The notes beneath the pieces are model-generated. The model saw only the letters and a program-made list of their open reading frames with translations. It ran no database searches and was not told the DNA's origin. Shown piece after piece: positions 23,503-44,136 of a stretch of DNA of 45,301 nucleotides (position 1 is the first letter of the stretch; each line of letters starts with the position of its first letter). The stretch is from Bdellovibrionales bacterium GWB1_55_8 (GTDB lineage: Bacteria > Bdellovibrionota > UBA1018). The stretch is taken from the NCBI GenBank assembly GCA_001769835.1, contig MEPR01000059.1, forward strand, positions 218-45,518, given 5' to 3'. The position numbers and the translations under genes were made by a program.

Positions 23503-24819
23503 TTAATAAGGTGAATTTTGATTTTCTCTTGAGTTCCACATTGCGGAGAGTGTGAAAAATGAGGAGAAATCGTGGACAAGCCCGTTTGCGGGGCGGGTCC
23601 CATAAGTGCTGGTTGGAGCAGAAGCTCGCCAATCGAATTCAAAAGCGTAACCGTAATACTTGGCGGCATCAGGGCTGCGGAGAACAACAGCGATCTCGCG
23701 ATTGTTCTCTACGGAATTTTGGGTTCCGTTAATGGAGCTGACAAAAGCCTGTTCGCCGTCGACCAGGATCCCTTTGTTATGAATGTAGCTGATGTCTGCC
23801 CGGCGCACGTTCACCGTTCTCGCGGAAATTGGAAGCCTTTCAGCTTTGGCAACCTGTCGCAACAGAGCCACGGTTGCTGCATTACCTTTCGAATCATCCG
23901 GCTCACCACCGCCAAATACGGTGTCATCATTTAGAAGAACCCGGACATCCACCCCGCGCTGGGCTGCACGGATCAGCTCCGTGACGATTGGGTTCTCACG
24001 ACGCACCGGCGATCGCCAGCTTGCCGGTAGAGACATCTTCTCAACATCAATCCGAACTCGGGCCGAGCGAATCAGGCTGACGATTTCATCCAGAGAGCGG
24101 GGAGATGCGACCAGTCTCACGGACGCTGCGTTTCCGTAGGCATCTGGAATTGCCTGCGCCCGCCGTGGACCCTTTGTAGTCGCTGGAGGTAAAACTCGCG
24201 CATTGCTGCGGACCAGAAGAACATCCCCGTTTCGTGCGTCAGCATCCGATCGGAAAACCTGCATCAGATCTTCCGCAAGGGAGGAATTGTCCATGACAAC
24301 GTCCCAGCCCCGATTTCCGATCTGGCCCGCGACGGGATGACCAGTGGCAGTGAAGTTCTCCGATGAAATGAGAACGTAGCGTCGGTCAGAGATGACGTAC
24401 TTGGCGTGATTGAAACGGAACCGGCGAGTATTGTTTTTTGAGCGTGTCATCATCGCAAGCCGACTATCCGGATTTCCGGAAGCACGAATAGCTCCCGCGA
24501 TTGCCGATAGCAGCTTCTTGCCATTTGGAGAAATGCTTCCGAGAGGTTCGCCCTCCACAAGTAGACGCACCGTGACGCCGGATTTAATTTTCGAAATGAT
24601 GACTGCAGCAATTTCGGGTGACTCGAATTGATAGATATTAATGATGAGTTCTCGAGTCGCCGAGTTCAGGACGGAATTCAGAACCGCTTGATTGTTATCT
24701 GGCGCCAGGGCCATCCGGATCGGAAATGCAAAAGCTGGAACCGCTAGCAGTAGTGTGATCGCCAAAAGCGCACACCTAAGTATTGTGGTGTGATGCTTTC
24801 TTGAATTTTCTAACGGCAT
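23503..24819 (-). CDS. Secreted phospholipase D-family protein (two HKD motifs)
   Basis: The 438-residue protein has a signal peptide (about 8-31, ending PAFA) and two phospholipase D motifs: NHAKYVISD (His138, Lys140, Asp145) and IHNKGILVD (His347, Lys349, Asp354). Each motif is followed by the usual polar segment (SSENFTATG and SSINGTQNS). Both halves are needed for one active site, so the enzyme looks active. It would act outside the inner membrane on phospholipids or, as some family members do, on nucleic acids. The ATG at 24819 follows GGGGGG at 5 bases, better than the opening at 24879. Its neighbours, a deacetylase and a signal-peptide lipid phosphatase, suggest secreted envelope-modifying enzymes. 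Confidence 0.88.
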   Translation of the reverse strand: MPLENSRKHHTTILRCALLAITLLLAVPAFAFPIRMALAPDNNQAVLNSVLNSATRELIINIYQFESPEIAAVIISKIKSGVTVRLLVEGEPLGSISPNGKKLLSAIAGAIRASGNPDSRLAMMTRSKNNTRRFRFNHAKYVISDRRYVLISSENFTATGHPVAGQIGNRGWDVVMDNSSLAEDLMQVFRSDADARNGDVLLVRSNARVLPPATTKGPRRAQAIPDAYGNAASVRLVASPRSLDEIVSLIRSARVRIDVEKMSLPASWRSPVRRENPIVTELIRAAQRGVDVRVLLNDDTVFGGGEPDDSKGNAATVALLRQVAKAERLPISARTVNVRRADISYIHNKGILVDGEQAFVSSINGTQNSVENNREIAVVLRSPDAAKYYGYAFEFDWRASAPTSTYGTRPANGLVHDFSSFFTLSAMWNSRENQNSPY

Positions 24820-24937
24820 GCAACCCCCCATTGGTGCGATCAACGTGCGGTCGAACTTAGCACGACATTCTGGTTCCACAACAGATATCGGTAGAAAAAA
24901 TAACGCGTTGCGCGATTAATAATTTACACCCGGGGGG

Positions 24938-25638: not shown

Positions 25639-28750
<3,112 letters not shown>

Positions 28751-28764
<14 letters not shown>

Positions 28765-30115
28765 AATCACGCATTACACGCCCGATGTTCTCGTGACCGG
28801 CGCCAAGACGCTGGCTGACGTGAACACCGATATTGCCGCTCCGCTCGAACGTTTTCCTGGCAAGATCTGGTGGATCTGCTTTGGGGTCGCCTTGGGTTGC
28901 TTTGGGATCGGCGCGGGGCTTGCGACCAAGATGTTCATGACGGGGCTCGGGGTCCTCGGGTTGAACGAGCCCAATGGTTGGGGCGTTTTCATTATCAATT
29001 TCGTTTTCTGGGTCGGCATCGGGCATGCGGGCACACTGATTTCGGCCATTCTTTTTCTGTTCAGGCAGAAATGGCGGACGGCCATCAACCGGGCTGCCGA
29101 GGCGATGACCATTTTCGCTGTCATGACAGCACTCCTTTTTCCGGTGATTCACACGGGCCGGCCCTGGTATGCGGTTTTCTGGCTGATCCCGTATCCGAAT
29201 CAAAGAGACCTCTGGGTGAACTTCCGTTCCCCCCTCATTTGGGACGTTTTCGCGGTGGGTACGTATTTCACGATCTCGCTGGTGTTCTGGTACATAGGTC
29301 TTGTTCCTGACCTGGCATCGATTCGGGATCGCGCCAAACACAAGCTTCGAAAATTCATATACACGATTTTGTCACTCGGCTGGCGGGGTTCGAACAAGAA
29401 CTGGTCTCATTACGAATCGGCTTATCTTCTGTTTGCCGGATTATCCACGCCGCTCGTGTTATCGGTGCATTCGGTGGTGTCGTTTGACTTCGCGGTTTCT
29501 AGTGTGCCGGGATGGCATACGACTATATTTCCGCCTTACTTCGTAGCAGGAGCCATTTTTTCTGGTTTTGCCATGGTGGTGACGCTGCTTGTGATCACGC
29601 GCGAGGTGTTCGGTCTCAAGAACTACATCACCATCGGGCATCTCGAGAAAATGAACAAGATCATCATGGCCACCGGACTGATGGTGGGCTACGCGTACGC
29701 ATGCGAATTCTTCATAGCCTGGTATAGTGGAAGCTCCTTTGAGAAGTTTGCGTTCGTCAACCGGGCTTTCGGTCCTTATTGGTGGGCGTATTGGATCATG
29801 GCGGTATGCAATGTGCTCGTTCCGCAGGTTTTCTGGTTCAAGAAAGCCAGGACCAGTATTCCTGTGATGTTTGTCGTGGCTCTTTTTGTGAACATCGGAA
29901 TGTGGTTTGAAAGGTTCGTGATCGTGGTCACGTCCCTGCATCGCGACTTTCTTCCTTCGAGCTGGAGGTACTATGTTCCGACGCTCTTTGACTGGGGAAT
30001 CACGCTGGGAAGCTTCGGATGGTTTTTCATCTGGTTCCTGCTGTTCGTGAGATTTCTTCCGGTAATCGCCATGTCCGAGATCAAAGGCGTCATCAAGGAA
30101 GGGGGGGCATCATGA
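28751..30115 (+). CDS. actC: Alternative complex III NrfD-like membrane subunit ActC
   Basis: This 454-residue protein has about ten membrane helices of the NrfD/PsrC type and should hold a quinol oxidation site. Family-like segments include [18 protein letters not shown], the histidine-containing loop [16 protein letters not shown], and the conserved helix [19 protein letters not shown]. Overlap of 14 bases with actB and 4 bases (ATGA) with actD indicates translational coupling. It is one of two NrfD-like subunits (the other is ActF), as in characterised alternative complexes. Confidence 0.93.
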
Positions 30116-30645
30116 ATTCCGGAAAAAACTTTGCTGGCGTTATCGGTTTCTTTGACGAGCCCCGTGCTCTGCTCGAGGCCACGCGTCAAGTGCGCGACGC
30201 GAATTTCGCCCGATTTGATTCCTTCACCCCTTATCCGGTGCATGGAATGGATGCGGCCCAAGGGATCAAGCGGTCGCGCATCCCCTATGTCACCTTTGTT
30301 GCGGGGCTTTGCGGTTTTCTATTCGCGTTTTGGTTTCAGTACTGGACGATGGCCGTGGACTGGCCTTTGAATGTCGGTGGCAAGCCTTTCAATTCATGGC
30401 CCGCATTCGTTCCAGTCATGTTTGAACTCACGGTTCTTGTCGCCGGACTCTCCACGCTGGTCGCGATGCTTTATTTCAACCGCCTTCCCAATGTCTTTCG
30501 TAGAGGCTTTGATCCGTCGATCACGCGTGATCGGTTCGCTTTGCTGATCGAACCGCCGGCGTCCGAGAAAGAGGCCACGGAGTTCCTGGAACAAATCGGA
30601 GCGAAGGAAGTACGTGCGGTTTATGCGCAAGGGTGGTTCGAATGA
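30112..30645 (+). CDS. actD: Alternative complex III membrane subunit ActD (DUF3341)
   Basis: The 177-residue protein begins [17 protein letters not shown], the usual start of DUF3341 proteins, which have a soluble ferredoxin-like N-terminus, then two membrane helices (about 62-82 and 100-125) joined by a loop with [19 protein letters not shown], and a C-terminal cytoplasmic part. It is a structural subunit without cofactors. The ATG at 30112 overlaps the actC stop as ATGA and follows GGAAGGGGGGG, so longer upstream readings are not needed. Confidence 0.92.
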
Positions 30646-31217
30646 CGGTTCGAAGGAGAGGGGGACTTCTACTCGTGGTTGCCTGTGCCAATTGTTTCCT
30701 TTTAACGGCGTGCACGCGTGAACAGCCGAATCGCGTATACATGCCGGATATGGCCTATAGCCCGGCAGTGAAGGCACAGGAACCAGGCTCCGCCCGAACA
30801 CCTCCCGAAGGGAGCATCCCCCGTGATTTCTCGCCTTACCCGTTCACATCGGAGAAGAACCCGGACGTTCCGGGCAAGCTGCTGAAGAACCCTCTGCAGC
30901 CTGCCGCCGCCGTTCTTCAGAGAGGCCAGGACCTTTACAATACCTTCTGTATCGTCTGTCATGGGCCCACTGCCTGGGGCAATGGAACGATCGTTCCGAA
31001 GTTCCCCAAACCCCCCGCTCTTCACACTGCGAAAGCCCGCGGGTTCCCTGATGGTAGAATCTTTCATGTGATCTCGGTTGGTCAAAATCTCATGCCCTCC
31101 TACAAAACGCAGATTTTGCGGGAAGACCGATGGGCGATAGTGCATTATGTTCGTGTACTTCAGGGAATTGGCACTCCAGTGGCCCCTCAGGCGTGGGGGC
31201 CCGCACCTGAGAAATAG
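30642..31217 (+). CDS. actE: Alternative complex III monoheme cytochrome c lipoprotein ActE
   Basis: The 191-residue protein has a lipoprotein signal (hydrophobic segment then LLTAC), a proline-rich periplasmic part with YMPDMAYSPA and a C-terminal cytochrome c domain with one heme motif CIVCH and a downstream axial methionine candidate in QNLMPSYK. It supplies the sixth heme of the complex and probably passes electrons to a soluble carrier or oxidase. The start at 30642 overlaps the actD stop as ATGA. ActF follows 14 bases after its stop. Confidence 0.92.
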   Translation: MTVRRRGGLLLVVACANCFLLTACTREQPNRVYMPDMAYSPAVKAQEPGSARTPPEGSIPRDFSPYPFTSEKNPDVPGKLLKNPLQPAAAVLQRGQDLYNTFCIVCHGPTAWGNGTIVPKFPKPPALHTAKARGFPDGRIFHVISVGQNLMPSYKTQILREDRWAIVHYVRVLQGIGTPVAPQAWGPAPEK

Positions 31218-31231
31218 AAAGGTCCCGTTTC

Positions 31232-32425
31232 ATGACAATCCGTTTGAATCGAGTCCAGAATCCGGGGACGTTTGATGCTCCGGCTCCGTTCAAGATGATG
31301 CTGCTGACATTCTGCGTACTGGGTGCGCTGACCTTTGCCATTGGCCTGTCCGTTTCGCCCACTCGGGCCTGGGCGAGCTTCGTTCACAATCATTTTTATT
31401 TTATGAGCCTTGCACTTGGAGGCCTATTCTTCGCTTCCATTCAATGGTTGACCGGAGCCATGTGGAGCGCGCCGTTGCGCCGGCTGAGCGAGTCACTGAC
31501 GGCATATCTGCCGCTCGTACTGCTCAGTTTCGCGATTCTGTATTTTGGGATTCAGAGTCTCTATCCCTGGAGCAATCCGGAACATGTATTCGGAGATCCG
31601 ATCCTTGAGGGCAAAACGGGTTACCTGAATACCGGCTTTTTCGTGATCAGAAACCTTCTTGGCCTCGCGGTCTGGCTTTTTTTCTCGAAGGTGATGATTG
31701 GGAATTCGCTGAAACAGGATATCAGCGGTGATCATCGCCTCACGGAGAGAAATCGTTCCCTGAGCCCGGTGTTCCTGATTCTTTTCGCTATCACGTTCAC
31801 CTCCGCCAGTTTTGATCAGCTGATGTCCCTTGATCCGCATTGGTTCTCTACCATTTTCGGAGTCTATTGCTTTGCCGGTCTTTTCTATGCCGCGCTCGCT
31901 GCGATCTGTCTTCTGACCGTCTATTTGAAGTCGCAGGGCAAGTTGAAGGAGCTGGTGAATGAGAACCATCTTCATGATCTTGGCAAATTCATGTTCGCTT
32001 TCACCATTTTCTGGGCCTATATCGGATTTTCTCAGTTCATGCTGATCTGGTACGCGAACCTTCCCGAGGAAACGGGTTATTACCTGAAACGGATGCATTC
32101 GAACTGGTACTATGTCTCGGCTTTTCTGCTGGTCGGAAAATTCCTGACCCCCTTCTTTTTGCTCATCACCCGGAGCGCAAAGCGGAATTCCCGAGTTCTC
32201 GCGGGTGTTGCCGTTTTTATGCTGATCGCCCAGTGGATCGATGTCCTTTGGATGGTGCAGCCGGAATTTTTCAGCGACGGACCTGTGTTTGGCTTCATCG
32301 AGATCGGCGTGACGCTGGGGTTCTCGGGCATATTCGGAATCACCGTCGCTCGATTTCTGAGAAAGAATAATGTCGTGGCGATCGGTGACCCGAGGCTTGC
32401 CGAGTCCCTCCGTCACGAGCAGTAG
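31232..32425 (+). CDS. actF: Alternative complex III membrane subunit ActF
   Basis: The 397-residue second NrfD-like subunit has about ten membrane helices. Characteristic segments are FVHNHFYFMSLALGGLFF, FLILFAITFTSASFDQLMSLDPHW, and FWAYIGFSQFMLIWYANLPEET; these also occur in ActF of known complexes. It ends the six-gene operon. In many genomes SCO1 and cytochrome oxidase genes follow; here the next gene is on the opposite strand only 15 bases away, so the terminal oxidase must be elsewhere. No T-rich terminator hairpin is visible in that gap. Confidence 0.93.
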   Translation: MTIRLNRVQNPGTFDAPAPFKMMLLTFCVLGALTFAIGLSVSPTRAWASFVHNHFYFMSLALGGLFFASIQWLTGAMWSAPLRRLSESLTAYLPLVLLSFAILYFGIQSLYPWSNPEHVFGDPILEGKTGYLNTGFFVIRNLLGLAVWLFFSKVMIGNSLKQDISGDHRLTERNRSLSPVFLILFAITFTSASFDQLMSLDPHWFSTIFGVYCFAGLFYAALAAICLLTVYLKSQGKLKELVNENHLHDLGKFMFAFTIFWAYIGFSQFMLIWYANLPEETGYYLKRMHSNWYYVSAFLLVGKFLTPFFLLITRSAKRNSRVLAGVAVFMLIAQWIDVLWMVQPEFFSDGPVFGFIEIGVTLGFSGIFGITVARFLRKNNVVAIGDPRLAESLRHEQ

Positions 32426-32440
32426 TTTTTGTTCATGGGC

Positions 32441-34273
32441 TCAGGCCGATTTCGCCTTAGGGAAAGGGAGCGCCAGTGAACTCGCTGGCGCGAGAATCAG
32501 GTTGCGGCCTCGTGCTGCAGCTACATGAATCCCTGCCTGAATCAGGGCCAGGTGCACCTCGAGACTTGGAAAACTTCCGCGATTTTCGTTGGAAGCCAGA
32601 TTGATCGTATCGCCATAGAACCCCATGGACGTCGCATAGCTTCCCAGTTCGGCAAGCCGGGTTTGGGCTTCTTCAGCGCGTCCGCAGATCGCAAGCGCCG
32701 AAACATAGAGGAAGCTGAACAGGAGACTCGCTCCCGGGAATTCCACGCCATGCGGGTCCCGCCTGGCATGGATGAATACACCTTCTGAAAGCTGCGACTG
32801 AATCGCATCGAGCGTGCCCAGTACTCGCGGATCATCCGGGGGAAGAAAGCCGAGGATGGGAATAAGGAGCGTGGCGGGATCGAGCTCTCGATCCGCGAAG
32901 GAGCGAACGAAGCTCCGTTGATTGTTATCGTAGCCCTGCTCGATGATCGTCCGGTGGAGGATGCGACGCTCATCGAGCCACCGTGGCGTGGGGCGCTCAT
33001 TGGCCGACTCCGCGAGTTGAATCGCACGATCCAGGACGACCCAGCAAAAGAGCTTTGACACGACGAAATGTTCGGGCCGCGAGCGCCCTCCCACGGAACG
33101 CCCCGGGTGCCAGGGGCCATAATCGGGGCGACGCCAGGCCTGGCAGATGTAATCGGCGATCTCGACGATTTTTTGCCACAAGCCGGCGGGCAGATGGCCG
33201 ATCAGTCGACGGTATTCAAATGCCGCGAGGAGCACCTGACCAAAGGTATCCAGGTGAAACTCGTGAAGAGTACGGATGCTTTCGTCCGGAAGAATGGGTT
33301 TGCTTTCGGAGAATTGTTTTCCGCCGTCGAGCAGGTATGCTGGTTGTAGTCCTTCCACGCCATCCCGAACCAGCAGATCCGAAAGCCACTGAAAAAGCGC
33401 TGTTGCTTCTGTGTGGTAGTCGAGATTCGCGAATGCCTGCATCCCCGTCGCGGTATTTTGAACCCAAGCATAACGGTGCTCCCAGCCGTGGCGTTCACCA
33501 GGATGTCTGGGAAACGAGGGAGCCACTGCTTCGGCAAGTGATCCGGCATATTTTGTCTGCAGGACCTTCAGAAGGAGCCCTGAGCGCACAAGAAGGTCAT
33601 GCCAGGGGCCCGCGAAGGGACAGCCCGTGGATGGGCAGCGATGCGCTTGAGTCATCCAGAATTCGATCGTTTCCTGTGGATTGGCGAGTCTGGGGACCGA
33701 GAGTTGCGCAATATGTGTTCGTCCCCAGGCCCAGGTGAACTGGCAGCGATCACCCATGCCGAGCGTGAACCTCGCCACGGCAGCTGAACCGTTTGCTGAG
33801 ATCTGGAGTGGGACATCCGCGTGAAGGTGGGCAAGCTCATTCTGCGCGGGCCCTCGAAAGAGAATTCCATTACGAAAGACTTCGGCCTCTGCCTTCAGCC
33901 CGCCGGAGAAACGAGGCGTACAGATCATGAGCCAGCTGACGCTTCCTTCCACAACTTCGACTCTGCGATGGATGATGGCTTCGCTGCCTTCATTCGTCGG
34001 CATCCAGTCGGTGAGAATAGCGCGGCCGTGTGGCGTCTCAAAAGTCGTCTCGAGGACGTGAGTGTTCTGCGCGTAGCTCTGTTCGGATCGGAACTCCCCC
34101 TCGGGATTTATCTGGAACCTTCCACCCCGGTTTTCATCGAGCATGGCCGCAAAGTGACTGGGAGAGTCCAGAAACGGAAGGCAACACCAGTCAATAGAAC
34201 CGGCGCGGCTGATCAGAGCGCTGCTGCTTGAATTGCCGATCAATCCGTATTCTGAAAGCGAAAGATACGGCAC
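32441..34273 (-). CDS. GH15-like protein, probably catalytically impaired
   Basis: The 610-residue protein matches bacterial glucoamylase/trehalase-like family 15: YGLIGNSSSSALISRAGSID with LPFLDSP at the N-terminus, then an alpha-toroid with WEHRYAWVQNTATGMQAF, HFVVSKLFCWVVLDRAI and LLIPILGFLPPDDPRVLGTL. Two sites differ from what I expect of active members. The general acid Glu in the W-E-x-R motif is His389 (YGPWHPG). The general base in the late E-E motif reads Gly554-Asp555-Thr556 (GFYGDTIN). The substrate-binding LRDA is VQNT. It may bind a glycan without cleaving it. The start is a GTG 2 bases after the DUF2231 stop, so translation is coupled. Confidence 0.82.
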   Translation of the reverse strand: MPYLSLSEYGLIGNSSSSALISRAGSIDWCCLPFLDSPSHFAAMLDENRGGRFQINPEGEFRSEQSYAQNTHVLETTFETPHGRAILTDWMPTNEGSEAIIHRRVEVVEGSVSWLMICTPRFSGGLKAEAEVFRNGILFRGPAQNELAHLHADVPLQISANGSAAVARFTLGMGDRCQFTWAWGRTHIAQLSVPRLANPQETIEFWMTQAHRCPSTGCPFAGPWHDLLVRSGLLLKVLQTKYAGSLAEAVAPSFPRHPGERHGWEHRYAWVQNTATGMQAFANLDYHTEATALFQWLSDLLVRDGVEGLQPAYLLDGGKQFSESKPILPDESIRTLHEFHLDTFGQVLLAAFEYRRLIGHLPAGLWQKIVEIADYICQAWRRPDYGPWHPGRSVGGRSRPEHFVVSKLFCWVVLDRAIQLAESANERPTPRWLDERRILHRTIIEQGYDNNQRSFVRSFADRELDPATLLIPILGFLPPDDPRVLGTLDAIQSQLSEGVFIHARRDPHGVEFPGASLLFSFLYVSALAICGRAEEAQTRLAELGSYATSMGFYGDTINLASNENRGSFPSLEVHLALIQAGIHVAAARGRNLILAPASSLALPFPKAKSA

Positions 34274-34275
34274 GG

Positions 34276-34773
34276 TCAGGCAGCCCTTCGGCTGTCTTTC
34301 CGTTTTTCTGCGGCCGAATTCCTGTAGCCGACACCGTACTGATATACCAGAAGGCCTCCCAGATAACCGGAGGCCGAGAGCAGTATCACGGAAACAAGCG
34401 ACACGATGAACTGCGCTGTCGTGACAGTCGTTGGCGCCGAGCCGCCAGGACCCATTCGCCACACGAAGTTCACGAAGTAGATGACCGTGATACCGACGTT
34501 CGCGATCGCATGAGTCGCAGCGATGCGTTTTGGACGGGTCCTTGCCGGAATGGAGAGAAAGTCCGCGAGACCTGTGGGAGCGGCAAGAAGAACCGCCACA
34601 AGTCCTATCAGAATGGAATAATAGGAGGCAATGGCGGGTCCTGGGGCGCCGCTTGCCAGATGGATGATGTCCATTATGAAACTAGCGACCCAGAGTCCCA
34701 CGGGTAAATGAACGATGATGGGATGCAATGGGTGACCGAGAAATCGCCCCTGCAGAATCGATTTTATCAGCAT
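34276..34773 (-). CDS. DUF2231-family membrane protein
   Basis: The 165-residue protein begins with a short polar stretch and the family motif GHPLHPIIVHLPVGLW, followed by four predicted membrane helices (around 18-38, 48-68, 86-106 and 120-145) and a basic C-terminal tail. The histidines of the first motif lie at the membrane face and may bind metal or heme, but no function is established. The ATG at 34773 has AAGGGG 8 bases upstream. It is in a minus-strand run, 32 bases after the PAP2 gene, and its stop is 2 bases before the GTG of the GH15-like gene. Confidence 0.85.
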   Translation of the reverse strand: MLIKSILQGRFLGHPLHPIIVHLPVGLWVASFIMDIIHLASGAPGPAIASYYSILIGLVAVLLAAPTGLADFLSIPARTRPKRIAATHAIANVGITVIYFVNFVWRMGPGGSAPTTVTTAQFIVSLVSVILLSASGYLGGLLVYQYGVGYRNSAAEKRKDSRRAA

Positions 34774-34805
34774 ATACACGACCCCTTAAGGATCGGCTGA
34801 AGCAA

Positions 34806-35558
34806 TCACGAGGCCAATTCCGACTGGCTGCCCGGCTTCTTGCGGTGAAAGTAAGCTACGGCGATGGCGACCAGCGTGCCCATAACGGCCGCAGTCAGGA
34901 CATCTGTGATGAAGTGCCGCCCGGCCAGAACCCGGAAAACGGCGGTGGCTATCACGAGCCCTTGTCCGACCGCGAGCGTTGCTCCCATCAACCAGAGGGG
35001 GGCCCCGCGCGAGAGAAGGATCAGAAGCAGCGTCACCATCATCGCGGCGCTATAACTGGTATGCCCGGAATAAAATGAGACGTAATGGGCGGGAGAGCTC
35101 CCAAGCCCGACTGGATCAGAATAGACGAAGGGGCGAGGACGTTGTGAGGCCACGCGAACGGCTTCATTCAGTGCGCCATTCCATGCGGTGGTCTGGATGA
35201 AAATCAGCAAATCGACTCCGGTATAAAGAAGGGCGGTCATCGGCGTGATACGACCAGCTACCGCGAGTGATGCGTGCCATATCGCTGGCACAGTGCCCGC
35301 GAGGACGCCTGATGTGTTTTGGGTCCAATAAGAGAAAGCATCCGCACCGCTGACGTCAAGGCCGATTGCGATGCGGTCCAAGGCAACGACAGATTCCGCA
35401 GTGCACTTTGCAGGTTCTGTGGCGCAGATGGTTTCGATTAATACGGGGCGCGACAGAACGAGTGTCGTCCAGATGAGCGCGGGCAGCAGCGTCAAAACAA
35501 TGTCCCGTTTGGAAACGAATGGCTCGGAGGCGAGCTTTAGAAGGAACTTTGCGACCAT
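34806..35558 (-). CDS. PAP2-family membrane phosphatase
   Basis: The 250-residue protein has about six membrane helices and the three PAP2 phosphatase motifs: ASQRPRPF, SFYSGHTSYSAA and RVLAGRHFITDV, with the catalytic histidines. Relatives dephosphorylate phosphatidate, undecaprenyl diphosphate or lipid A on the outer face of the inner membrane. The gene starts 4 bases after the stop of glutamate-cysteine ligase, so it belongs to the same transcript. The substrate cannot be told; an undecaprenyl or phosphatidic lipid is most likely. Confidence 0.9.
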   Translation of the reverse strand: MVAKFLLKLASEPFVSKRDIVLTLLPALIWTTLVLSRPVLIETICATEPAKCTAESVVALDRIAIGLDVSGADAFSYWTQNTSGVLAGTVPAIWHASLAVAGRITPMTALLYTGVDLLIFIQTTAWNGALNEAVRVASQRPRPFVYSDPVGLGSSPAHYVSFYSGHTSYSAAMMVTLLLILLSRGAPLWLMGATLAVGQGLVIATAVFRVLAGRHFITDVLTAAVMGTLVAIAVAYFHRKKPGSQSELAS

Positions 35559-35562
35559 GTGC

Positions 35563-36837
35563 TCACTTTACCATAGATCGCGTTTGAAGCTCGCGACCCG
35601 CAGCAAGAGCCGAGAGCCTGGCGACCCATCCATAAACCAATTCCAGGACCGGTTGCGGTTTCGCGTCCTCTTCTGAGGTCTGGAGATCTGACATGCACAG
35701 CTTCCTGAATACCATGCCTGGTGCGTTCAGGTTCTCTTCCGTGCCACGCTCTGAATGCGTGCGCAGAAACCCGCCCACCAGGTCTGCCCCCATCAGATAA
35801 ATCACTGGTTCCGCTGGAAGCCGGTCGACCAGAGTTGCCGTCGGGACACCTTCCTGAACGACGACACTGTCGATTGGAATTCGATTTTTTCCGACGCTCA
35901 TCTTGTTCTTCACCCTGCGATTCATCGTCCGCAGCTCATCAGCTGATCTGACGACAACGATGCCCATTCCATAGGTGCCGCGATTACTCTTCACAAAAGC
36001 GAACGGATCACGCTGCAGTTTCCTGTCGGAGTAGGCCTGTCGCATCCGGTCCAGAACCCGCGCTACCGATTCCGCGGTTTCCTCAATGCCGACCCCCTCG
36101 TTGAAGTCCACGGGGTCCACTATCTCCGTGTCCAGCTGGACCGTCCACGGATCAATTCCCACGATCCCCGCGAATTCGCCTGCCAGCCGGTTGTAATGAA
36201 TGAAATGATCGCTCTTCTTCCTGGAGTGCCACCCTAATGTATAACTCGGTACAATGGGTTGGGTGACTGGGTCCAGACCATGCGGATAGCCGATCGAAAA
36301 ATCGTTATTCAGGAGAATCAGATCGGGAACAAAATCTCCGGCAGAAAGCACCCCTCCGGAAATTTCAATGGGCCAGGCCATGAGCTCTTTTCCTGATTCC
36401 GATTTCAAGCGGACCATTTTATCTTTTTCAGCTTCCGGCGGCAAAGGTCCATACCAGCCCAGGCGAGCTTCGAAACCGGCGTTGTTCATGATTTGCAGAA
36501 GATAAAAAAGATTCTCAGTGTAATACGGATTATGGGTATGGGACTCAGGAAGAAGCAGTAATCTTCCTGGTGTGCCGCGTCCGGCTGCTTTCGCGGAGGC
36601 TGTCATCTGCACGCGCAGGGTGGCAGCAGCGGTACGCAGATCCTCGGGGCAGAGGTTGTTGAATCCTGCGGGATACAGATTGCAATCGACCGGGACGACT
36701 TTATGCCCGGAATCGCGGAGGTCCACGGAACAATAGAACGGGGGAGGCGCGGCCGCCAACTGAGTTTGCAGCCAATCGCGAAGCTCCCGGTTCTTGCTTC
36801 CGATCTCGCGGGCAAGCTCCTCTTTTAATGAAGTCAT
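35563..36837 (-). CDS. gshA: Glutamate-cysteine ligase (Acidithiobacillus-type GshA)
   Basis: This 424-residue protein matches the ligase family typified by the Acidithiobacillus enzyme, which makes gamma-glutamylcysteine, the first step of glutathione synthesis. Recognised segments are VVPVDCNLYPAGFNNL, LLLLPESHTHNPYYTENL, DLILLNNDFSIGYP, FVKSNRGTYGMGIVVV (an ATP-grasp-like strand-loop) and VVVQEGVPT. It is unrelated in sequence to the E. coli type. Glutathione synthetase (GshB) is not in the window. The start overlaps the stop of the upstream TPR gene as ATGA, so they are coupled. Its presence in a run with ArsA-like ATPases is unexpected. Confidence 0.88.
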   Translation of the reverse strand: MTSLKEELAREIGSKNRELRDWLQTQLAAAPPPFYCSVDLRDSGHKVVPVDCNLYPAGFNNLCPEDLRTAAATLRVQMTASAKAAGRGTPGRLLLLPESHTHNPYYTENLFYLLQIMNNAGFEARLGWYGPLPPEAEKDKMVRLKSESGKELMAWPIEISGGVLSAGDFVPDLILLNNDFSIGYPHGLDPVTQPIVPSYTLGWHSRKKSDHFIHYNRLAGEFAGIVGIDPWTVQLDTEIVDPVDFNEGVGIEETAESVARVLDRMRQAYSDRKLQRDPFAFVKSNRGTYGMGIVVVRSADELRTMNRRVKNKMSVGKNRIPIDSVVVQEGVPTATLVDRLPAEPVIYLMGADLVGGFLRTHSERGTEENLNAPGMVFRKLCMSDLQTSEEDAKPQPVLELVYGWVARLSALAAGRELQTRSMVK

Positions 36838-37862
36838 TTTTGAGAACCTGTCTCACCGCTGATTCCTGCCAGCTGGTCGGCAAGCCCCATGGAAAATGAA
36901 GAGGTCGCTTGCGGGAGTTGGGATTCCCAGGCTTTCAAAATGCCGATCTGATTGCGAAGGGTTGAACGGCAGGCAGCTTGCAGAAAGGCCGTCAGTTCTC
37001 CGCGGTAGCGTTTCAGCTGAAGGGGTGTTCTGGGTTTCCTTGATCCTTCCGGAGGCTCGGGAGGATCGGGCGGATGGGAGCAGATTTTCCAGTAATTTTT
37101 GAACGCTCCCTTTGTGTCTTCGAGGGCTCTCCGGCTCCAGGCGGGGTCCGATGTCTCTAGAACAGCGCGGAACAGCAGTAACGCCTCTCCAAGGCAGTCA
37201 CCCCGCCGTGCAAGCTGGTCCCGAACCTTTTCCTCATCGAGCGGGGACTGGCTTGGAAAGCGGGCGCATTTGCGGTGTTTCAAATCAAGTTCCAGCCAGG
37301 CTGCCTCGGCGCGTTCTTCAACAATAAGGGCCTTCGCAGATTCGAGAACCTTGGCGGCACGGGCCTCGTGACCCTGACCGGTCAGGGCGCGTGCGCGAAT
37401 GAGCAGGGCTTCTGATTGTGTGGCTTGCGAGCCACCGTGCTTTTTTTCGATCTCGATCGTTGTTTGATAACTTTCCTCGTGTTTTCCGGATTCCATGTAA
37501 GCCCGTGCGAGAAGCACGCGCGCCGCCGCCAGTTCGTTTTCCGATCGCGATGCGCTGGTGACGTAACGGAGGGGAGGGATCGCTCGAGCCGGGTTTCCGG
37601 TTTTCAGCAGGCTGCGACCCAGCAACAAGTGAGCTTCAAGGTAACCTGTTGCACCGGGATAGCGGTCCACGAAGCGCTGAAGTTCGCGAGCGGCCTCTGC
37701 ATATTTTTCTTGATGATACGCTTCTTTGCCCTGCTTCCAGAGCACCTCCGCCTCGACGCTCGACCGAGGGCCGGCGTGACCCGAAGCTGACGCCAGAATG
37801 CTGCTAATCGCGAATATCAGTGTTCCGCTGATTGGCCTCGGGACCCAACGTTTGTGCAACAT
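36834..37862 (-). CDS. Exported TPR-repeat protein
   Basis: The 342-residue protein has a signal peptide (MLHKRWVPRPISG...ASGHA, about 1-31) followed by tetratricopeptide-like helices: AEVLWKQGKEAYHQEKYAEA, YLEAHLLLGRSLLKTGNPARA and ARVLLARAYMESGKHEESYQ. This resembles the periplasmic YbgF/CpoB-type arrangement. A second half contains longer helices and a proline-rich stretch. It would act as a periplasmic scaffold. The ATG lies inside the end of the ATPase gene (59-base overlap) and its stop overlaps gshA. Function unknown; the partners are probably products of the same operon. Confidence 0.8.
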   Translation of the reverse strand: MLHKRWVPRPISGTLIFAISSILASASGHAGPRSSVEAEVLWKQGKEAYHQEKYAEAARELQRFVDRYPGATGYLEAHLLLGRSLLKTGNPARAIPPLRYVTSASRSENELAAARVLLARAYMESGKHEESYQTTIEIEKKHGGSQATQSEALLIRARALTGQGHEARAAKVLESAKALIVEERAEAAWLELDLKHRKCARFPSQSPLDEEKVRDQLARRGDCLGEALLLFRAVLETSDPAWSRRALEDTKGAFKNYWKICSHPPDPPEPPEGSRKPRTPLQLKRYRGELTAFLQAACRSTLRNQIGILKAWESQLPQATSSFSMGLADQLAGISGETGSQK

Positions 37863-38922
37863 AGAATAAATCCTCCACGGAATGGATATCCCGCGCCAGC
37901 TCGGGAACCCTCGCACAGATCCGGACGGCGCCCGCCCTGAGCGTTTCTTCCGCGCTCTTTTCGCGCTCTTTGAGGGCGGAGAGTATGGAAATGGCTGCCG
38001 CTTGCTCGGCGTTTCCTGATGTTTTGGCTGCTTTTTCTACTCCCTCAAGATAGCCCAGAGTCCTATTCAGTGCCACTCCGTCGAAGTGAAAACCATGTTC
38101 CTGAATGACTTGGATAAACTGCTGAACCTCGGGGGCGGTATCGGGCGAGGGCGCAGTAACCATGATGAAGCCGACTGATTCCGACTCGAGCATGTTCGTG
38201 GTTTGTTTCATGTTGGCCAGGAACCGTACGCGAACCTCAAAAAGAGTCGATGCGAATTCCAGCAGGTTGCTCATGAATCCCGCGCCGGTGAGGCGCTCCA
38301 GAACGCCCAAGGCGCTTCTCATCCCTGCCGCCACGATCTTGTTGGCAGGCAGAACCAGCCAGCGGATCAATCGTTCTTCGAACAATCTCGCCAGGAGTTT
38401 GGGCGCGTTGAGGAATGCGAGCGCGTTCCTACTTGGGGGGGTGTCCAGAATGATGCAATCGAACTCTCCAGTGTGGTCCAGCGCCCGAAGCCGTTCCAGA
38501 GCCATGTATTCATTCGTGCCGGAAAATTCCTTCGTGAAGATCTGGAAAAGCGGGTTTTTCAGGATTTTTTCAACGACTTCGCGCGAAGGCGCCAGTTCAG
38601 TGAGAAAATCCTGAAAATTCCGGTTTGCATCCGGGATCATCGCGAAAAATCGACCTTTGCCCAGTTGTACCTCGGATTTTTTTGCGGCATTTTCGAGATA
38701 AGATGTGAGATCCGTCGGGCGATTTCCTAATGTGTCCAGTCCAAGCGACGTTGCGAGCCTTTTTGCGGGATCAATAGTGACCACGATCGCTCGGCGTCCC
38801 AGAAGCGCCGCGCGCATGGCAAGAGCGGCACTCAGGGTTGTCTTTCCAACGCCGCCGGTCCCCAGCGTGACGATGATTCGACGTTTGCTCAGAATCTCAT
38901 CGATGATCGGGCTTTTGATCAT
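37804..38922 (-). CDS. ArsA/Get3-like ATPase without signature lysine
   Basis: The 372-residue protein is a deviant Walker A P-loop ATPase related to arsenite-pump ATPase ArsA and tail-anchored-protein factor Get3. The P-loop reads LGTGGVGKTTL. The first lysine of the usual GKGGVGKT, the signature lysine that reaches across the dimer interface, is replaced by threonine. Other motifs are present: switch I IDPAKRLATSLGL and switch II ILDTPPSRNALAFL. The C-terminal half has hydrophobic helices (RLTGAGFMSNLLEFASTLF) that in Get3 bind client helices. The ATG at 38922 overlaps the stop of the next ATPase gene as ATGA. Probable heterodimer partner of that protein. Confidence 0.88.
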   Translation of the reverse strand: MIKSPIIDEILSKRRIIVTLGTGGVGKTTLSAALAMRAALLGRRAIVVTIDPAKRLATSLGLDTLGNRPTDLTSYLENAAKKSEVQLGKGRFFAMIPDANRNFQDFLTELAPSREVVEKILKNPLFQIFTKEFSGTNEYMALERLRALDHTGEFDCIILDTPPSRNALAFLNAPKLLARLFEERLIRWLVLPANKIVAAGMRSALGVLERLTGAGFMSNLLEFASTLFEVRVRFLANMKQTTNMLESESVGFIMVTAPSPDTAPEVQQFIQVIQEHGFHFDGVALNRTLGYLEGVEKAAKTSGNAEQAAAISILSALKEREKSAEETLRAGAVRICARVPELARDIHSVEDLFYVAQTLGPEANQRNTDIRD

Positions 38923-39794
38923 ACGTAGCCCTTCTCGATCAGTTCGCACGACAGTTTTTCGGAGATATCGCTGCCGGGCGGCATATAAGAGAGTTCAGCG
39001 AACTTGAGTCCTCTTTCCCGCCACAGACGCAAATTGAAGTCCTCAAGGATCGCGCGTTTTTCGATGTACTCGTGAGCAGTGAACGCGAGCGGGCTTGTCC
39101 AGCGCGATGGCGGATCGGTGTCCGTGGGGTCAGCCTGCGCTGTTTTCGGGAAAACCCGATTGACCAAAAAATCGACGGCGTTGTCGGGGAATATCTCGTG
39201 GAGCAGATTCTCCAGCTCAAGTGCCTCCCTGAGTGGCATCTCCTCAGGCAATGCGACGAGCAGGTGTCCGCACTGAGCGGGGTCTCCAAAGGTTTGCATC
39301 ATCGCGACAGCATCTCGATGGACCGGTCCTCCCTGAAAGAGGACTGAAAAATTCTGTGTACTCTGAAACATGGCAAGCCCGTGGCCCGTGGCTGGAAGGT
39401 CCGCAACCACACGGTCATAGAGGTGCCGTTCGTGCCAGACCTTTCCGAGCAGTACAAGTTCGTGAATCCCGGGAGCGGCCTGGGCAAGGTATTGCACGAG
39501 TTTGTTCTTCACGAAGACGCGGGAAATCGCGGATGCGCCGATCTTCATCGTGACGTATTCCTCGAACGCGACAGCAGCGCAGGCATTCAGGTGAATCAGC
39601 CCTGGCGCGATCTCGCGGACCCCGCCCGGTATCAGAAGTGGATCTTCGAACGTGATCCAGAGCGTTTTCAGCTTTTTCTTCGCGAAAGCCCGCGCGATCC
39701 CCAGCGAGACGGCCGTTTTACCGACTCCTCCTTTACCTGTGACGAAGAGGATATGACGTGAAAGCAGGTCTTGAATCACCGCGCGTCGCTCCAT
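38919..39794 (-). CDS. ArsA/Get3-like ATPase, second paralogue
   Basis: This 291-residue protein is also ArsA/Get3-like and keeps the complete deviant Walker A motif TGKGGVGKTAVS, including the signature lysine. Switch I is ITFEDPLLIPG and switch II is VVADLPATGHGLAM, close to the DTAPTGH of ArsA. It is shorter than its neighbour, and the client-binding helical region is reduced. No arsenite-binding cysteine triad or arsenite channel gene is present, so an arsenic role is unlikely. The ATG at 39794 lies inside the end of the upstream unknown gene (19-base overlap); a TTG at 39812 is an alternative. Such adjacent ATPase pairs occur in several bacterial groups without known function. Confidence 0.88.
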   Translation of the reverse strand: MERRAVIQDLLSRHILFVTGKGGVGKTAVSLGIARAFAKKKLKTLWITFEDPLLIPGGVREIAPGLIHLNACAAVAFEEYVTMKIGASAISRVFVKNKLVQYLAQAAPGIHELVLLGKVWHERHLYDRVVADLPATGHGLAMFQSTQNFSVLFQGGPVHRDAVAMMQTFGDPAQCGHLLVALPEEMPLREALELENLLHEIFPDNAVDFLVNRVFPKTAQADPTDTDPPSRWTSPLAFTAHEYIEKRAILEDFNLRLWRERGLKFAELSYMPPGSDISEKLSCELIEKGYV

Positions 39795-40747
39795 GGGACG
39801 GGATGTTTCCAATCAACGGGAATGGAGACCTGGTCCAGGCGTGCACGTTCTTCACTTGGCAGTGAGGCTTCGGTCTGGATAATGAGCTTACGTGAGCCGG
39901 GCGCTGAGCTGCTTCGTTCAAACGCTTTCAGATCCGACTCCACGGGAACGCCTGAGGAATAGACCCAGACAATCCGGTTGTCTCCAAATTCTTTCCAGAC
40001 TTCCGGGGACGGTGGCGGATAATCAGAATAAACTGCGACTTCCTCGAGTCCGTGAATGTTTTTCAGGTAATCCCAATGAGGACCAGAGGGAAATGTTCCG
40101 CCAAGAATTTTCAGTTTCTTCGCATGCGGAGTCATATTGAACACATCCATCTGGTGATACCAGGGCCAGATCTGCGACACGAAGTTGAGAGTGACGTTGG
40201 CCGGGATCGCGAGAAGCAGCTCTTTTTCCTCATAGCGGGGATAAAACGGTGTTTGGAATTCGATGGAGATGGGCACCGTGAATGCGCTCAGGCGCTCGCC
40301 GTCTTCGATATCCGGAAAATGCTTCATGAGAAATTCTATCGAGTGTGGGGCGATCGAGTTCAGTAATTGGATATCATCAGTTGCGGGCAGAGGGATATCG
40401 AGCAGCTTGATTTTCAGTGGCACTTTGCGCGCGAGCTTCCGCCAAAGGTCCGCGTCGCCGGGTTGCGGAAGACTCTCCATTTCGATGGTGAGGGACGAGG
40501 CCGCCGATAGCTGAAGCAACGCCGCGAGTTCTGATGTGCCCGGATTGAGCATTCTGAAAACGTAATCACGAATTCCCGGTGAGCGTGACCACCGGGCGAC
40601 CTCTGCCGGGGTCAGCCAGTCTGAATGGGTCCAGGTTTCGTGGACATTGCCGCTGGCTTGAGCCAACCGCTGAAACCCCATGATCGAACCCATGATCAGG
40701 AGAGTGCCGACGATCAATACCGGAGCGAAACGCTGACTTTGCCTCAT
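39776..40747 (-). CDS. Exported or membrane-anchored protein of unknown function
   Basis: I do not recognise this 323-residue protein. It has a single N-terminal hydrophobic segment (APVLIVGTLLIMGSIMGF) that is an anchor or signal, then a soluble periplasmic part with repeating short motifs such as PLKIKLLDIPLP, VPISIEFQTPFYP and KKLKILGGTF. These are spaced like the strands of a solenoid or leucine-rich-repeat-like fold. The ATG at 40747 is preceded by GGAGGT at 4 bases, a very strong ribosome-binding site. It is the first gene of a minus-strand run that continues with two ArsA-like ATPases, and its end overlaps the first of them. A substrate or anchor of those ATPases is a reasonable guess. 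Confidence 0.75.
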   Translation of the reverse strand: MRQSQRFAPVLIVGTLLIMGSIMGFQRLAQASGNVHETWTHSDWLTPAEVARWSRSPGIRDYVFRMLNPGTSELAALLQLSAASSLTIEMESLPQPGDADLWRKLARKVPLKIKLLDIPLPATDDIQLLNSIAPHSIEFLMKHFPDIEDGERLSAFTVPISIEFQTPFYPRYEEKELLLAIPANVTLNFVSQIWPWYHQMDVFNMTPHAKKLKILGGTFPSGPHWDYLKNIHGLEEVAVYSDYPPPSPEVWKEFGDNRIVWVYSSGVPVESDLKAFERSSSAPGSRKLIIQTEASLPSEERARLDQVSIPVDWKHPVPWSDAR

Positions 40748-40800
40748 AAGACCTCCGAGGCGTGAGCAGACCATAAGAGCTGTCCGCTTTCAACTTTTGC

Positions 40801-40870: not shown

Positions 40871-41485
40871 ATGCAATCTAGGCATCTTTCATTGGGTTTC
40901 GCTACAGGGCTCGTGGCTCTCTCGTCCGTGCTGATCACGAGCTGTGGTCCGAAGGCGTTTACCCGCGGCGAGTATGACGATCCGACTCGAGTGGAGCTCC
41001 TCGACGACAAATACAATGAAGCCGACATGCAGCAGATGGCCGACACGATCATCCGCGCGATGGTTTCCTGCGGCTACGTCGCAAAGGCTCCCAAGCCTCC
41101 GGTGGTGATTGTTGAAAAAGTTCAGAATCGCACGGAAGAGCACATTGATACGGTTTCTCTGACAGACAAGATTCGAACTGCTTTGATCAAAACCGGCAAA
41201 GTTCGTTTCGTGAACAAGACCGAGCGGGCGACGCTTGAAGAAGAATATCAACACAACGAGTCTGGAAATGTTTCCGGACCCACGGCGAAAAAACGTGGGA
41301 AGCAGATCGGCGCTGATTATATTTTGAGCGGCGCGCTTGCGACAAACGTTCAGCAGGTCGGCAACGACAAGTTCATTTATTACAAGCTGACGATGAATCT
41401 CACGAACCTCGAGGAGTCCACCATTGACTGCACCGAGGAACGCGAGATCCGGAAGAAGTACCGGAAGCGCAGCGTCGGCCTCTAA
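40871..41485 (+). CDS. LpoB-like penicillin-binding-protein activator lipoprotein
   Basis: The 204-residue protein has a lipoprotein signal with LITSC (Cys25). The folded part from about 75 matches the LpoB family: PPVVIVEKVQNRTEEHIDT, DKIRTALIKTGKVRFVNK, GADYILSGALATNVQQ, and YKLTMNLTNLEESTI. In E. coli LpoB sits in the outer membrane and activates PBP1B through the peptidoglycan layer. The ATG follows AAGGAAAGGA. The COG3014-type gene starts 4 bases after the stop, a pairing common in other bacteria, so both are probably one operon under the palindromic site upstream. Confidence 0.88.
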   Translation: MQSRHLSLGFATGLVALSSVLITSCGPKAFTRGEYDDPTRVELLDDKYNEADMQQMADTIIRAMVSCGYVAKAPKPPVVIVEKVQNRTEEHIDTVSLTDKIRTALIKTGKVRFVNKTERATLEEEYQHNESGNVSGPTAKKRGKQIGADYILSGALATNVQQVGNDKFIYYKLTMNLTNLEESTIDCTEEREIRKKYRKRSVGL

Positions 41486-41489
41486 GTTG

Positions 41490-42725
41490 ATGCAGAAGGT
41501 TTCCGCTTTCCTGACTATCCTGCTTTTGACTGCGGGGTGTGCGTCTTCGCGCGTTCTCGATTCCGAATCAACCCGGCTGTTTCGAGAGGGGCGTTATGAA
41601 GATGCCGCTACCCGCCTGGAAGAAGGGCTGAAGCGGGAAGGAGATGGGAAGGACCAGCTACTCTATCTTCTGGATCTGGGTCTGAGCCTCCATTCGGCGG
41701 GCAAATACGAGGAAAGTAATCGTGCGTTTCTCGCGGCCGACAAAGTCGCCGAAATCAAAGACTATACGAGTCTTGCAGCCGAAAGTGCCACTCTCCTAAC
41801 GACGGATACCGTCAAAGACTATAAGGGCGAGGACTTCGAGAATGTCCTGATCAGTACGTACCTGGCCATGAACTATGCGCTCCTGGGCGACAACGAGAAC
41901 GCGCTTGTCGAGGCCAGGCGCGTGAATCGTAAGCTTCATCTGATGATTTTCGAGGGAAAGCGTAAGTACAAGCAAAACGCCTTCGCGCGCTATTTGTCCG
42001 CGATCCTTTACGAAGCCGAAGGTGACCCTAACGATGCCTACATTGATTACAAGAAGACCCGGGAGCTCCGCCCGGGTTTTCCGGGGCTCGGGCGCGATCT
42101 GTGGCGCACGGCCCGGCTCACAGGCATGCGCGATGAAATGGAAGCCTGGGACAATGAGTACGGATTGACGGAGGAGGATCACAGGCTTGCGCTCGAGGCC
42201 GCTCCGCGTTCCGGAAAAGGGGAAATCATCATCCTGTATGAAAACGGCATCTCTCCTGTAAAACGTCCGAATCCGGACTTTAGACAGCTTCCGAAGTTCT
42301 ACCCGCGCCCGAACCCTGTCTCGCGCGCGACCATTCAGCTGGATGGTCGCGAACTCGCTCAAACGGCGGTTCTTCACGATATCGAGCGGACCGCTATCCA
42401 GAATCTTGAGGAGAAATACGGAGGTCTTGTCGCGAAAAAGATCGCCGGTCTGGTGGCCAAGGAACTGGTTTCTGATCAGATCGAGCGTCACACGAAGAGT
42501 CCCGCGCTTGGTTTCATGGCGCGTGTGATTTTGTATGCAAGTGACCGGGCGGATGTCCGCTCCTGGAACCTGCTGCCTCGTGATTTGCAGATTGCGCGCA
42601 TTCCTGTCGAGCCCGGCGTGCATGAAGTGAGAATCCTTCCGGATGGGTCGGCGACCCTTCCCGCCAAAACCGTCCACGTCGAGGCCGGACGCAAGGTTTT
42701 CGTGAATTTCCGATACATGCCTTAG
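41490..42725 (+). CDS. COG3014-family TPR-like lipoprotein
   Basis: The 411-residue protein has a lipobox LTAGC (Cys17) and starts with tetratricopeptide-like helices (RLFREGRYEDAATRLEEGL, SLHSAGKYEESNRAFLAAD). A conserved core of the COG3014 family follows (ISTYLAMNYALLGDNENALV, FARYLSAILYEAEGDPNDAY) and a beta-rich C-terminus ending AGRKVFVNFRYMP. The family's role is not established, though it often neighbours LpoB-like genes. The ATG at 41490 is chosen because it opens the lipoprotein signal; the frame also stays open upstream inside the previous gene. Translation is likely coupled to it. Confidence 0.85.
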   Translation: MQKVSAFLTILLLTAGCASSRVLDSESTRLFREGRYEDAATRLEEGLKREGDGKDQLLYLLDLGLSLHSAGKYEESNRAFLAADKVAEIKDYTSLAAESATLLTTDTVKDYKGEDFENVLISTYLAMNYALLGDNENALVEARRVNRKLHLMIFEGKRKYKQNAFARYLSAILYEAEGDPNDAYIDYKKTRELRPGFPGLGRDLWRTARLTGMRDEMEAWDNEYGLTEEDHRLALEAAPRSGKGEIIILYENGISPVKRPNPDFRQLPKFYPRPNPVSRATIQLDGRELAQTAVLHDIERTAIQNLEEKYGGLVAKKIAGLVAKELVSDQIERHTKSPALGFMARVILYASDRADVRSWNLLPRDLQIARIPVEPGVHEVRILPDGSATLPAKTVHVEAGRKVFVNFRYMP

Positions 42726-43029: not shown

Positions 43030-44136
43030 TCAGTTGAGTTTTAGCCCGGCCAGAAGATGGACCGAGTAAATCTCAAGCTGTCGTAGATGCTTGAAAAAGA
43101 GCCAGGGCACGTGGTTCGACTTCTTTTCGATCTGGAAACCGCTCTGCGCATAGAGCCACTCCACCGCTTTGGCGGAATCCTTGATGTCCTTTGGAAGGAT
43201 TTCGCGAAGGTGTGCTGCAACCGATTCATGCCAAATATACGGACAGCTCTGAATTGCCATGCCGCCCTTCTTTAAAAGGTCGTGCTGGAGCTGAGGTAGC
43301 CCCTCCGGCTCGTCAAGCATGTCAATCGCATTCAAAGCGAGCGCGAGGTCAAATTGCTCGCGAATCACTGGTAAATTGTCGAGATTTCCGACAATGAGAT
43401 CCGCTGAGCCATCCAGGGCAGGGGTAATCGGAAGCTCGATCTTCATGGAAACGGGGCCATCCAGGAGGTCGCCGGGAATGCGGACGGCACGGTCGTACGG
43501 AGCGCCTAAAGCCAGGTGCCTGCCAAGCGCAATGCTCGCAAATGAACTGTCGACTCCGAGGTAATAGCTCGTGCGCGGCCGCAGCATTTTGGATAATCCG
43601 GCAACGCCGCAGCCCAGCTCGATCGTTGATTGGATCGGTTTCCTGTCGCTGAATTCCATGACCCATTCCACGATCTTAGCGTGAGGTCCGCTATCCCAAT
43701 GCTCGCGGATCAGGGATTCAATCAGCGGACTTCCGGTGGTTCCCGATGAAGGCTTGAACCAGCTGGGAGCATGGCTTGTGCTGAGATAGTGATTCATGAA
43801 GTAGAGCGCAATCACTCGTTCGGCTTCAAGATCCTCCTCAATATGCTCCGTCGTGAGCTCCGATTTGGCCTGGAGGTAGTCGTCTAAAAAATCCGGCGGG
43901 ATGGAGGAATCAGGAACGAGGCGGGCGATCCCCTTCGCGTGTTCAATCAGATATCCTGCGATATCTTCCACCAGAATGGCGACGCCAGCGAGAATGGGAT
44001 AGGTTGCCTGACAGTTTTCACATCGCAGTGTTCCCGAAGTGATTTCGTAAACAGCAGCCGCTAGGGTCCCTGAATGGATTTTAAGCGGGCCGGTACATGC
44101 CGGACACCGCAAGCGTGACCCTGTCACATTCAGCAT
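43030..44136 (-). CDS. SAM-dependent methyltransferase with N-terminal zinc ribbon
   Basis: The 368-residue protein starts with a Trm112/YcaR-like zinc ribbon (LRCPACTGPL...LRCENCQATYPI), with four cysteines at CPAC and CENC. A helical linker leads to a class I methyltransferase domain from about 165: motif I TIELGCGVAGLSKML, the acidic end of strand 2 YYLGVDSSF, and FDLALALNAIDML near motif IV. The substrate is unknown. Fusion of a Trm112-like ribbon to a methyltransferase resembles enzymes acting on tRNA, rRNA or quinone-like molecules. It starts 3 bases after the stop of trmB, so the two are co-transcribed. Confidence 0.85.
   Translation of the reverse strand: MLNVTGSRLRCPACTGPLKIHSGTLAAAVYEITSGTLRCENCQATYPILAGVAILVEDIAGYLIEHAKGIARLVPDSSIPPDFLDDYLQAKSELTTEHIEEDLEAERVIALYFMNHYLSTSHAPSWFKPSSGTTGSPLIESLIREHWDSGPHAKIVEWVMEFSDRKPIQSTIELGCGVAGLSKMLRPRTSYYLGVDSSFASIALGRHLALGAPYDRAVRIPGDLLDGPVSMKIELPITPALDGSADLIVGNLDNLPVIREQFDLALALNAIDMLDEPEGLPQLQHDLLKKGGMAIQSCPYIWHESVAAHLREILPKDIKDSAKAVEWLYAQSGFQIEKKSNHVPWLFFKHLRQLEIYSVHLLAGLKLN

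Follow-up and report, generated by a model that had tools for sequence, protein, structure and literature searches.

Get3/ArsA-like ATPases of the BagA/BagB type beside a glutamate-cysteine ligase gene in Bdellovibrionota

Why would two Get3/ArsA-like ATPases sit in a tightly packed gene run in which no arsenic gene is recognised? The question is raised by a 45,301-nucleotide stretch of DNA from Bdellovibrionales bacterium GWB1_55_8 (contig MEPR01000059.1, positions 218 to 45,518), which we call the window, where the list of open reading frames (ORFs) places eight minus-strand ORFs at 32441-40774. An earlier note on this DNA had read the eight genes as an undescribed membrane-protein targeting or envelope system linked to thiol metabolism. 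Our analysis divides the run into a conserved core, bagA-bagB-TPR-gshA, which encodes the ATPase pair, an exported TPR protein and glutamate-cysteine ligase, and a set of local additions (a PAP2-family phosphatase, a DUF2231 membrane protein, a GH15/trehalase-like protein and an exported protein that belongs to no known family). The ATPase pair is of a known kind, and its conserved context with gshA appears to be unreported in the literature that could be searched.

Identity of the ATPase pair

The bagA-type gene (38919-39794, minus strand; listed as ORF 38919-39812, with a probable ATG start at 39794) and the bagB-type gene (37804-38922, minus strand) encode Get3/ArsA-fold ATPases, and both proteins carry the ArsA_ATPase Pfam domain (83 bits in one, 58 in the other). 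The remaining PF02374 matches in the window's genome are short P-loop matches. The best NCBIfam match of the BagB-type protein is BagB (NF053621, expectation value 7e-69, 233 bits, as against only 75 bits for TRC40/GET3/ArsA), and that of the BagA-type protein is BagA (NF053622, expectation value 7e-19, 68 bits; Get3/ArsA profiles, 52 bits). In the PDB the best sequence matches are 6bs3_A, which is Rv3679 of Mycobacterium tuberculosis, for the BagA-type protein and 6bs3_B, which is Rv3680, for the BagB-type protein; 6bs3 is a single entry that holds both chains. The profiles fit the relatives as well, with NF053621 matched by 31/31 BagB relatives from across the phylum and NF053622 by 29/29 BagA relatives from the window's own class. 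The pair is therefore not undescribed, being of the BagA/BagB type of M. tuberculosis. Both proteins miss the equivalog cut-offs, which were set for mycobacterial proteins (233 versus 521 bits for BagB, 68 versus 400 bits for BagA), and because the scores lie so far below them we use the label "BagAB-type": judged by sequence, the window's ATPases are a BagAB-type pair rather than certified equivalogs.

The two genes share a 4-base ATGA overlap, provided that bagB begins at the ATG at 38922. The same 4-base overlap was found in 21 of the 32 own-class loci measured, and all 32 show an overlap of at least 1 base. A search of genome contigs with BagA alone found no related loci. By analogy with the M. 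tuberculosis proteins, the BagA and BagB of the window would form a heteromeric ATPase.

The pair is asymmetric in its nucleotide-binding motifs. The deviant Walker A signature lysine is present in 109 of 111 motif-bearing BagA relatives and in 0 of 119 BagB relatives. The window's proteins (GKGGVGKT in BagA, GTGGVGKT in BagB) share this asymmetry, a lysine in A and not in B, with Rv3679 (GKGGTGKS) and Rv3680 (GAGGVGKT). In the Get3/ArsA fold the signature lysine extends into the site of the partner subunit. Because it reaches across the dimer and only BagA has it, we infer that the nucleotide site of BagB should be complete and that of BagA defective. The CxxC motif, which in Get3 marks the zinc/redox cysteines, occurs in 5/119 BagB and 5/117 BagA relatives, and no invariant cysteine was found in the alignment of either ATPase (A1, A2).

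The primary papers on BagAB are Hu 2019 and Whitaker 2020; to our knowledge BagAB has no established client or mechanism, despite a solved structure and stress phenotypes. One paper (PMC10597346), citing Whitaker 2020, credits mycobacterial bagAB with protecting against the toxicity of glycerol and of nitric oxide, and transposon insertions in mycobacterial bagAB change survival under streptomycin and rifampicin (PMC12216072).

Conservation of the core and its sulfur-gene neighbours

The gene that follows bagB encodes the exported TPR protein (36834-37862, minus strand; listed ORF to 37916; Pfam TPR), and after it comes gshA (35563-36837, minus strand), identified by profile search as a glutamate-cysteine ligase of the TIGR02049/PF08886 family (PF08886, 430 bits; TIGR02049, 389.5 bits, passing the curated cut-off of 293.9). 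Neighbours in the window's own class were counted from 40 loci, each denominator being the number of loci with enough flank. The TPR gene follows bagAB in 29/32 loci and gshA stands beside bagB in 24/26, so this part of the eight-gene grouping held up in the comparison. The other part did not: the PAP2 gene is found beside the pair in 6/25 own-class loci, DUF2231 in 3/22, GH15 in 3/19 and a homologue of the exported protein in 11/38, and none of the four is seen there elsewhere in the phylum (0/52, 0/51, 0/48 and 0/57, respectively). The run is thus a conserved core with local additions, and the claim that its eight genes make up one system is not borne out.

At the scale of the phylum, BagB was detected in 171 of 192 Bdellovibrionota genomes and gshA in 147. 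BagB locations among the matches listed cover 145 genomes, and cases in which the two genes fall on different contigs include fragmented assemblies. Among these matches, bagB and gshA lie at most 6 kb apart in 95 of the 118 genomes in which both were located; their proximity is seen in 18 of 21 families, with a median start-to-start distance of 2.3 kb. Outside the window's own class gshA stays beside bagB in 38/55 loci, whereas other own-class neighbours are lost, not only PAP2 and GH15 but also the LpoB-family lipoprotein gene (5/55) and TrmB (0/46). Because these neighbours lose their linkage while gshA keeps it, the bagAB-gshA linkage is not a matter of general gene-order conservation, and the recurrence of the core gene order across most of the phylum is beyond chance. 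The named loci that show the linkage include Bdellovibrio sp. qaytius (L173). It appears to be unreported in the searchable literature, in which we found no paper that names "Bdellovibrio" together with "anion-transporting ATPase".

The variable further neighbours of bagAB are mostly sulfur genes. In 14/21 own-class loci, genes for cystathionine beta-synthase and for a cystathionine gamma-lyase/synthase lie 3' of gshA. The beta-synthase (cluster c6) follows gshA directly in many relatives, and in the window it lies about 14 kb away (19730-21115, minus strand; PALP and CBS domains; TIGR01137, 492 bits, narrowly missing the cut-off of 510). The gamma-lyase/gamma-synthase gene (cluster c9) comes after it both in the relatives and in the window (18563-19717, minus strand; NF005871, 558 bits against a cut-off of 513). 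A homologue of the CysZ/EI24 sulfate transporter is found near bagB in families f11, f17-f20 and f22-f24. In many families it sits, together with a TPR lipoprotein gene, between bagB and gshA, and in f11 and f17 CysZ directly adjoins bagB although gshA is elsewhere. In the window's genome CysZ is unlinked to bagAB. The earlier suggestion of a link to thiol metabolism is thus strengthened, both by the conserved bagB-gshA linkage and by these additional sulfur neighbours.

Glutathione is a plausible end product in the window's genome, since a GshB-like gene is present there (171 bits, not reaching the cut-off of 272). In two Bdellovibrio-like genomes of family f13, G099 (L090) and G062 (L089), no match to the glutathione synthetase domain PF02955 was found though gshA is present, so the pathway in these may end with gamma-glutamylcysteine or some other thiol.

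Layout of the run and its other genes

The eight-gene minus-strand run is as packed as had been described, all ORFs being present with profile identities that agree; neighbours overlap or are separated by at most 26 bases. The TPR gene and gshA overlap by 4 bases, gshA and the PAP2 gene are spaced by 4 bases, and the PAP2 and DUF2231 genes by 26. The starts listed first for bagA (TTG 39812), bagB (GTG 38949), the TPR gene (GTG 37916) and the GH15 gene (GTG 34462) are probably too early, better ones being 39794, 38922, 37862 and about 34276. A scan for promoters and terminators gave counts inside the shuffle range or lower.

The accessory genes on the minus strand encode the PAP2-family phosphatase (34806-35558; PF01569, 62 bits), the DUF2231 membrane protein (34276-34779; PF09990, 109 bits) and the GH15/trehalase-like protein (32441-34279; listed ORF 32441-34462; PF00723, 91 bits, and TREH_N). 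Additions of the PAP2-GH15 kind recur 3' of gshA in a few relatives. The exported protein (39776-40747, minus strand), outside the core, has no Pfam or NCBIfam match. Its AlphaFold model (predicted local distance difference test score, pLDDT, of 88) has about 12 strand-helix units and is a predicted beta-alpha repeat solenoid. A fold search of the PDB gave partial matches to TIM-barrel and leucine-rich-repeat proteins with query-normalised template-modelling scores of at most 0.35, none full-length, and because the matches are only partial and score so low no family can be named for it.

The AlphaFold model of the TPR protein (pLDDT 89) is an all-helical TPR solenoid, with which the fold search agrees, adding nothing further. 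Two cysteines, C217 and C241 (in the numbering of a 360-residue protein), are invariant in 24 aligned sequences with identities down to 15%, and could be joined by a disulfide in the envelope. In other families a TPR lipoprotein occupies the position of the TPR protein. Divergent from bagA, genes for an LpoB-family lipoprotein (TIGR02722, above cut-off) and a TPR lipoprotein occupy 40871-42725 on the plus strand of the window; LpoB is found in 30/36 own-class loci, and the TPR lipoprotein paired with it in 28/32 own-class loci and 4/54 elsewhere. M. tuberculosis bagAB also lies near a penicillin-binding protein gene, ponA2; the parallel with the LpoB neighbour is possibly a coincidence.

In the window other genes separate the cystathionine genes from the bagAB-gshA run, among them an alternative complex III (Act)-like operon (25639-32425, plus strand); an ActE-like gene is also found near the cluster in loci L040 and L042. 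A phospholipase D-like protein (23503-24879, minus strand) matches DISARM DrmC below the cut-off. A methyltransferase (43030-44136, minus strand) has a Trm112-like N-terminus and weakly resembles the C-terminal domain of OvoA (4-mercaptohistidine N-methyltransferase); its gene is a possible further thiol gene near the run.

Proposed function and comparison with known systems

We lean slightly towards a reading in which the asymmetric BagA-BagB ATPase serves cysteine/glutathione homeostasis, the core being a putative thiol-homeostasis operon of the Bdellovibrionota. The operon bagA-bagB-TPR-gshA would often be lengthened by cysteine-supply genes, either the cystathionine beta-synthase and gamma-lyase pair or a CysZ-type sulfate transporter. 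GshA makes gamma-glutamylcysteine, which a GshB-like enzyme encoded elsewhere in the genome can complete to glutathione. If BagA and BagB assemble as in the M. tuberculosis complex structure into an asymmetric heteromeric Get3/ArsA-fold ATPase, binding and hydrolysis of ATP would open and close the dimer, moving or protecting a client that may matter when low-molecular-weight thiols are in demand, as under nitric oxide, aldehyde or oxidant stress. Nitric oxide and glycerol-derived methylglyoxal are both dealt with by low-molecular-weight thiols, and for this reason the mycobacterial phenotype and the Bdellovibrionota linkage agree. The broader proposal that BagAB is a general ATP-driven part of the way bacteria keep low-molecular-weight thiols and sulfur in balance is more tentative, and we think it doubtful. 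Were it true, the mycobacterial nitric oxide and glycerol phenotype, with mycothiol, and the Bdellovibrionota linkage, with cysteine and gamma-glutamylcysteine/glutathione, would reflect a single function, such as the use of ATP to handle thiol adducts or to keep up the sulfur-uptake machinery.

Several observations weigh against a thiol-homeostasis role. At PF08886 loci of Gammaproteobacteria, Myxococcales, Acidithiobacillus and HR37, bagAB is absent beside gshA, and none of 12 gshA-bearing genomes from outside the Bdellovibrionota, searched in full, gave a full-length BagB; their ATPase matches were short, partial or lacking altogether. Conversely, family f10 has bagAB and no gshA of the PF08886 family was found in it, and mycobacteria have bagAB with mycothiol as their thiol. 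Since bagAB occurs without gshA and gshA without bagAB, neither requires the other. The two are separated in families f5, f11 and f17; in f5 the TPR gene, gshA and the gamma-lyase gene remain together and bagAB has relocated. Gene neighbourhood is, moreover, not function, and genomes from a single phylum are not independent of one another.

These points would suit an explanation by shared regulation only, in which bagAB and the cysteine/glutathione genes both respond to redox or nutrient stress, operon inertia keeps their order, and the job of BagAB is unrelated. The confinement of the linkage, in the genomes examined, to a single phylum, the three families in which the genes are apart and a mycobacterial pair that works without this gshA all speak for it. 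We nevertheless hold it to be rather unlikely, as bagAB and gshA are kept together while other neighbours are scrambled in the same genomes, and bagAB has another sulfur gene, CysZ, linked to it in families that gshA has left. As for an envelope system in which all eight genes act together, the genes are tightly packed in the window's genome, and PAP2-GH15 additions follow gshA in a few relatives, but most of the partners, four out of six, seldom accompany the pair in its own class and never do so outside it, which makes such a system the least credible of the alternatives.

Two further explanations start from the fold. BagAB might, like Get3, escort tail-anchored or other membrane or exported proteins, products of the operon included, to the membrane. 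The Get3/ArsA fold, the exported TPR protein or TPR lipoprotein that is often adjacent, and the multi-pass CysZ adjacent in some families are consistent with this. The rarity of CxxC in the relatives of both subunits, the lack of a recognised Get1/2-like receptor in the conserved core and the poor conservation of exported neighbours other than the TPR protein argue against it, so that the targeting role put forward earlier gained no positive evidence and seems to us improbable. Alternatively, the homology to ArsA, which handles thiol-bound arsenite, and the CysZ/EI24 genes near bagB in several families could mean that BagAB energises a transporter of a thiol or sulfur metabolite or of a toxic thiol adduct, the channel being either a protein of the CysZ family or an unlinked permease. 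Most families, however, have no permease in the core, CysZ lies apart from bagAB in the window's genome, Escherichia coli CysZ functions without such an ATPase, and the run has no recognised gene of the ArsB, ArsD or ArsR type; we regard this explanation as very unlikely.

For a thiol-homeostasis role, the interest lies in BagAB being a Get3/ArsA-like pair of a major pathogen, for which the phylum-wide linkage to cysteine/glutathione synthesis offers a specific and testable lead in predatory bacteria, which serve as laboratory models. The case also cautions that ArsA-like and Get3-like genes are not automatically arsenic or tail-anchor genes, and the earlier observation of such ATPases without arsenic genes stands, the fold family being matched and none of the run's profiled genes being recognisable as an arsenic gene.

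Eukaryotic Get3/TRC40 shares the fold family and the P-loop with BagAB, but BagAB consists of two different subunits in which CxxC is nearly absent, its BagB lacks the signature lysine, and no receptor genes were recognised; classical Get3 was rejected on the near absence of CxxC in the BagA and BagB relatives. The ArsA arsenical pump ATPase has the ArsA_ATPase Pfam domain and two ATPase halves, as BagAB does, whereas in BagAB the halves are on separate genes and BagB is without the signature lysine. An arsenite pump, which would have two fused halves, metalloid-binding cysteines and arsB/arsR alongside, was rejected because the halves are unfused and there are no conserved cysteines. The window's gshA is a full member of the Acidithiobacillus ferrooxidans-type family, which outside the Bdellovibrionota was not found beside bagAB. 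Compared with M. tuberculosis BagA-BagB (Rv3679-Rv3680; PDB 6bs3, 6bs4 and 6bs5), the window pair is distant, its BagA is shorter, and its context is one of gshA, the cystathionine genes and CysZ. Like the mycobacterial proteins, however, it is a two-gene pair, each member having its best profile and PDB match there, with the signature lysine present in A and lost in B and with the switch-II motif DTPPSRN in BagB.

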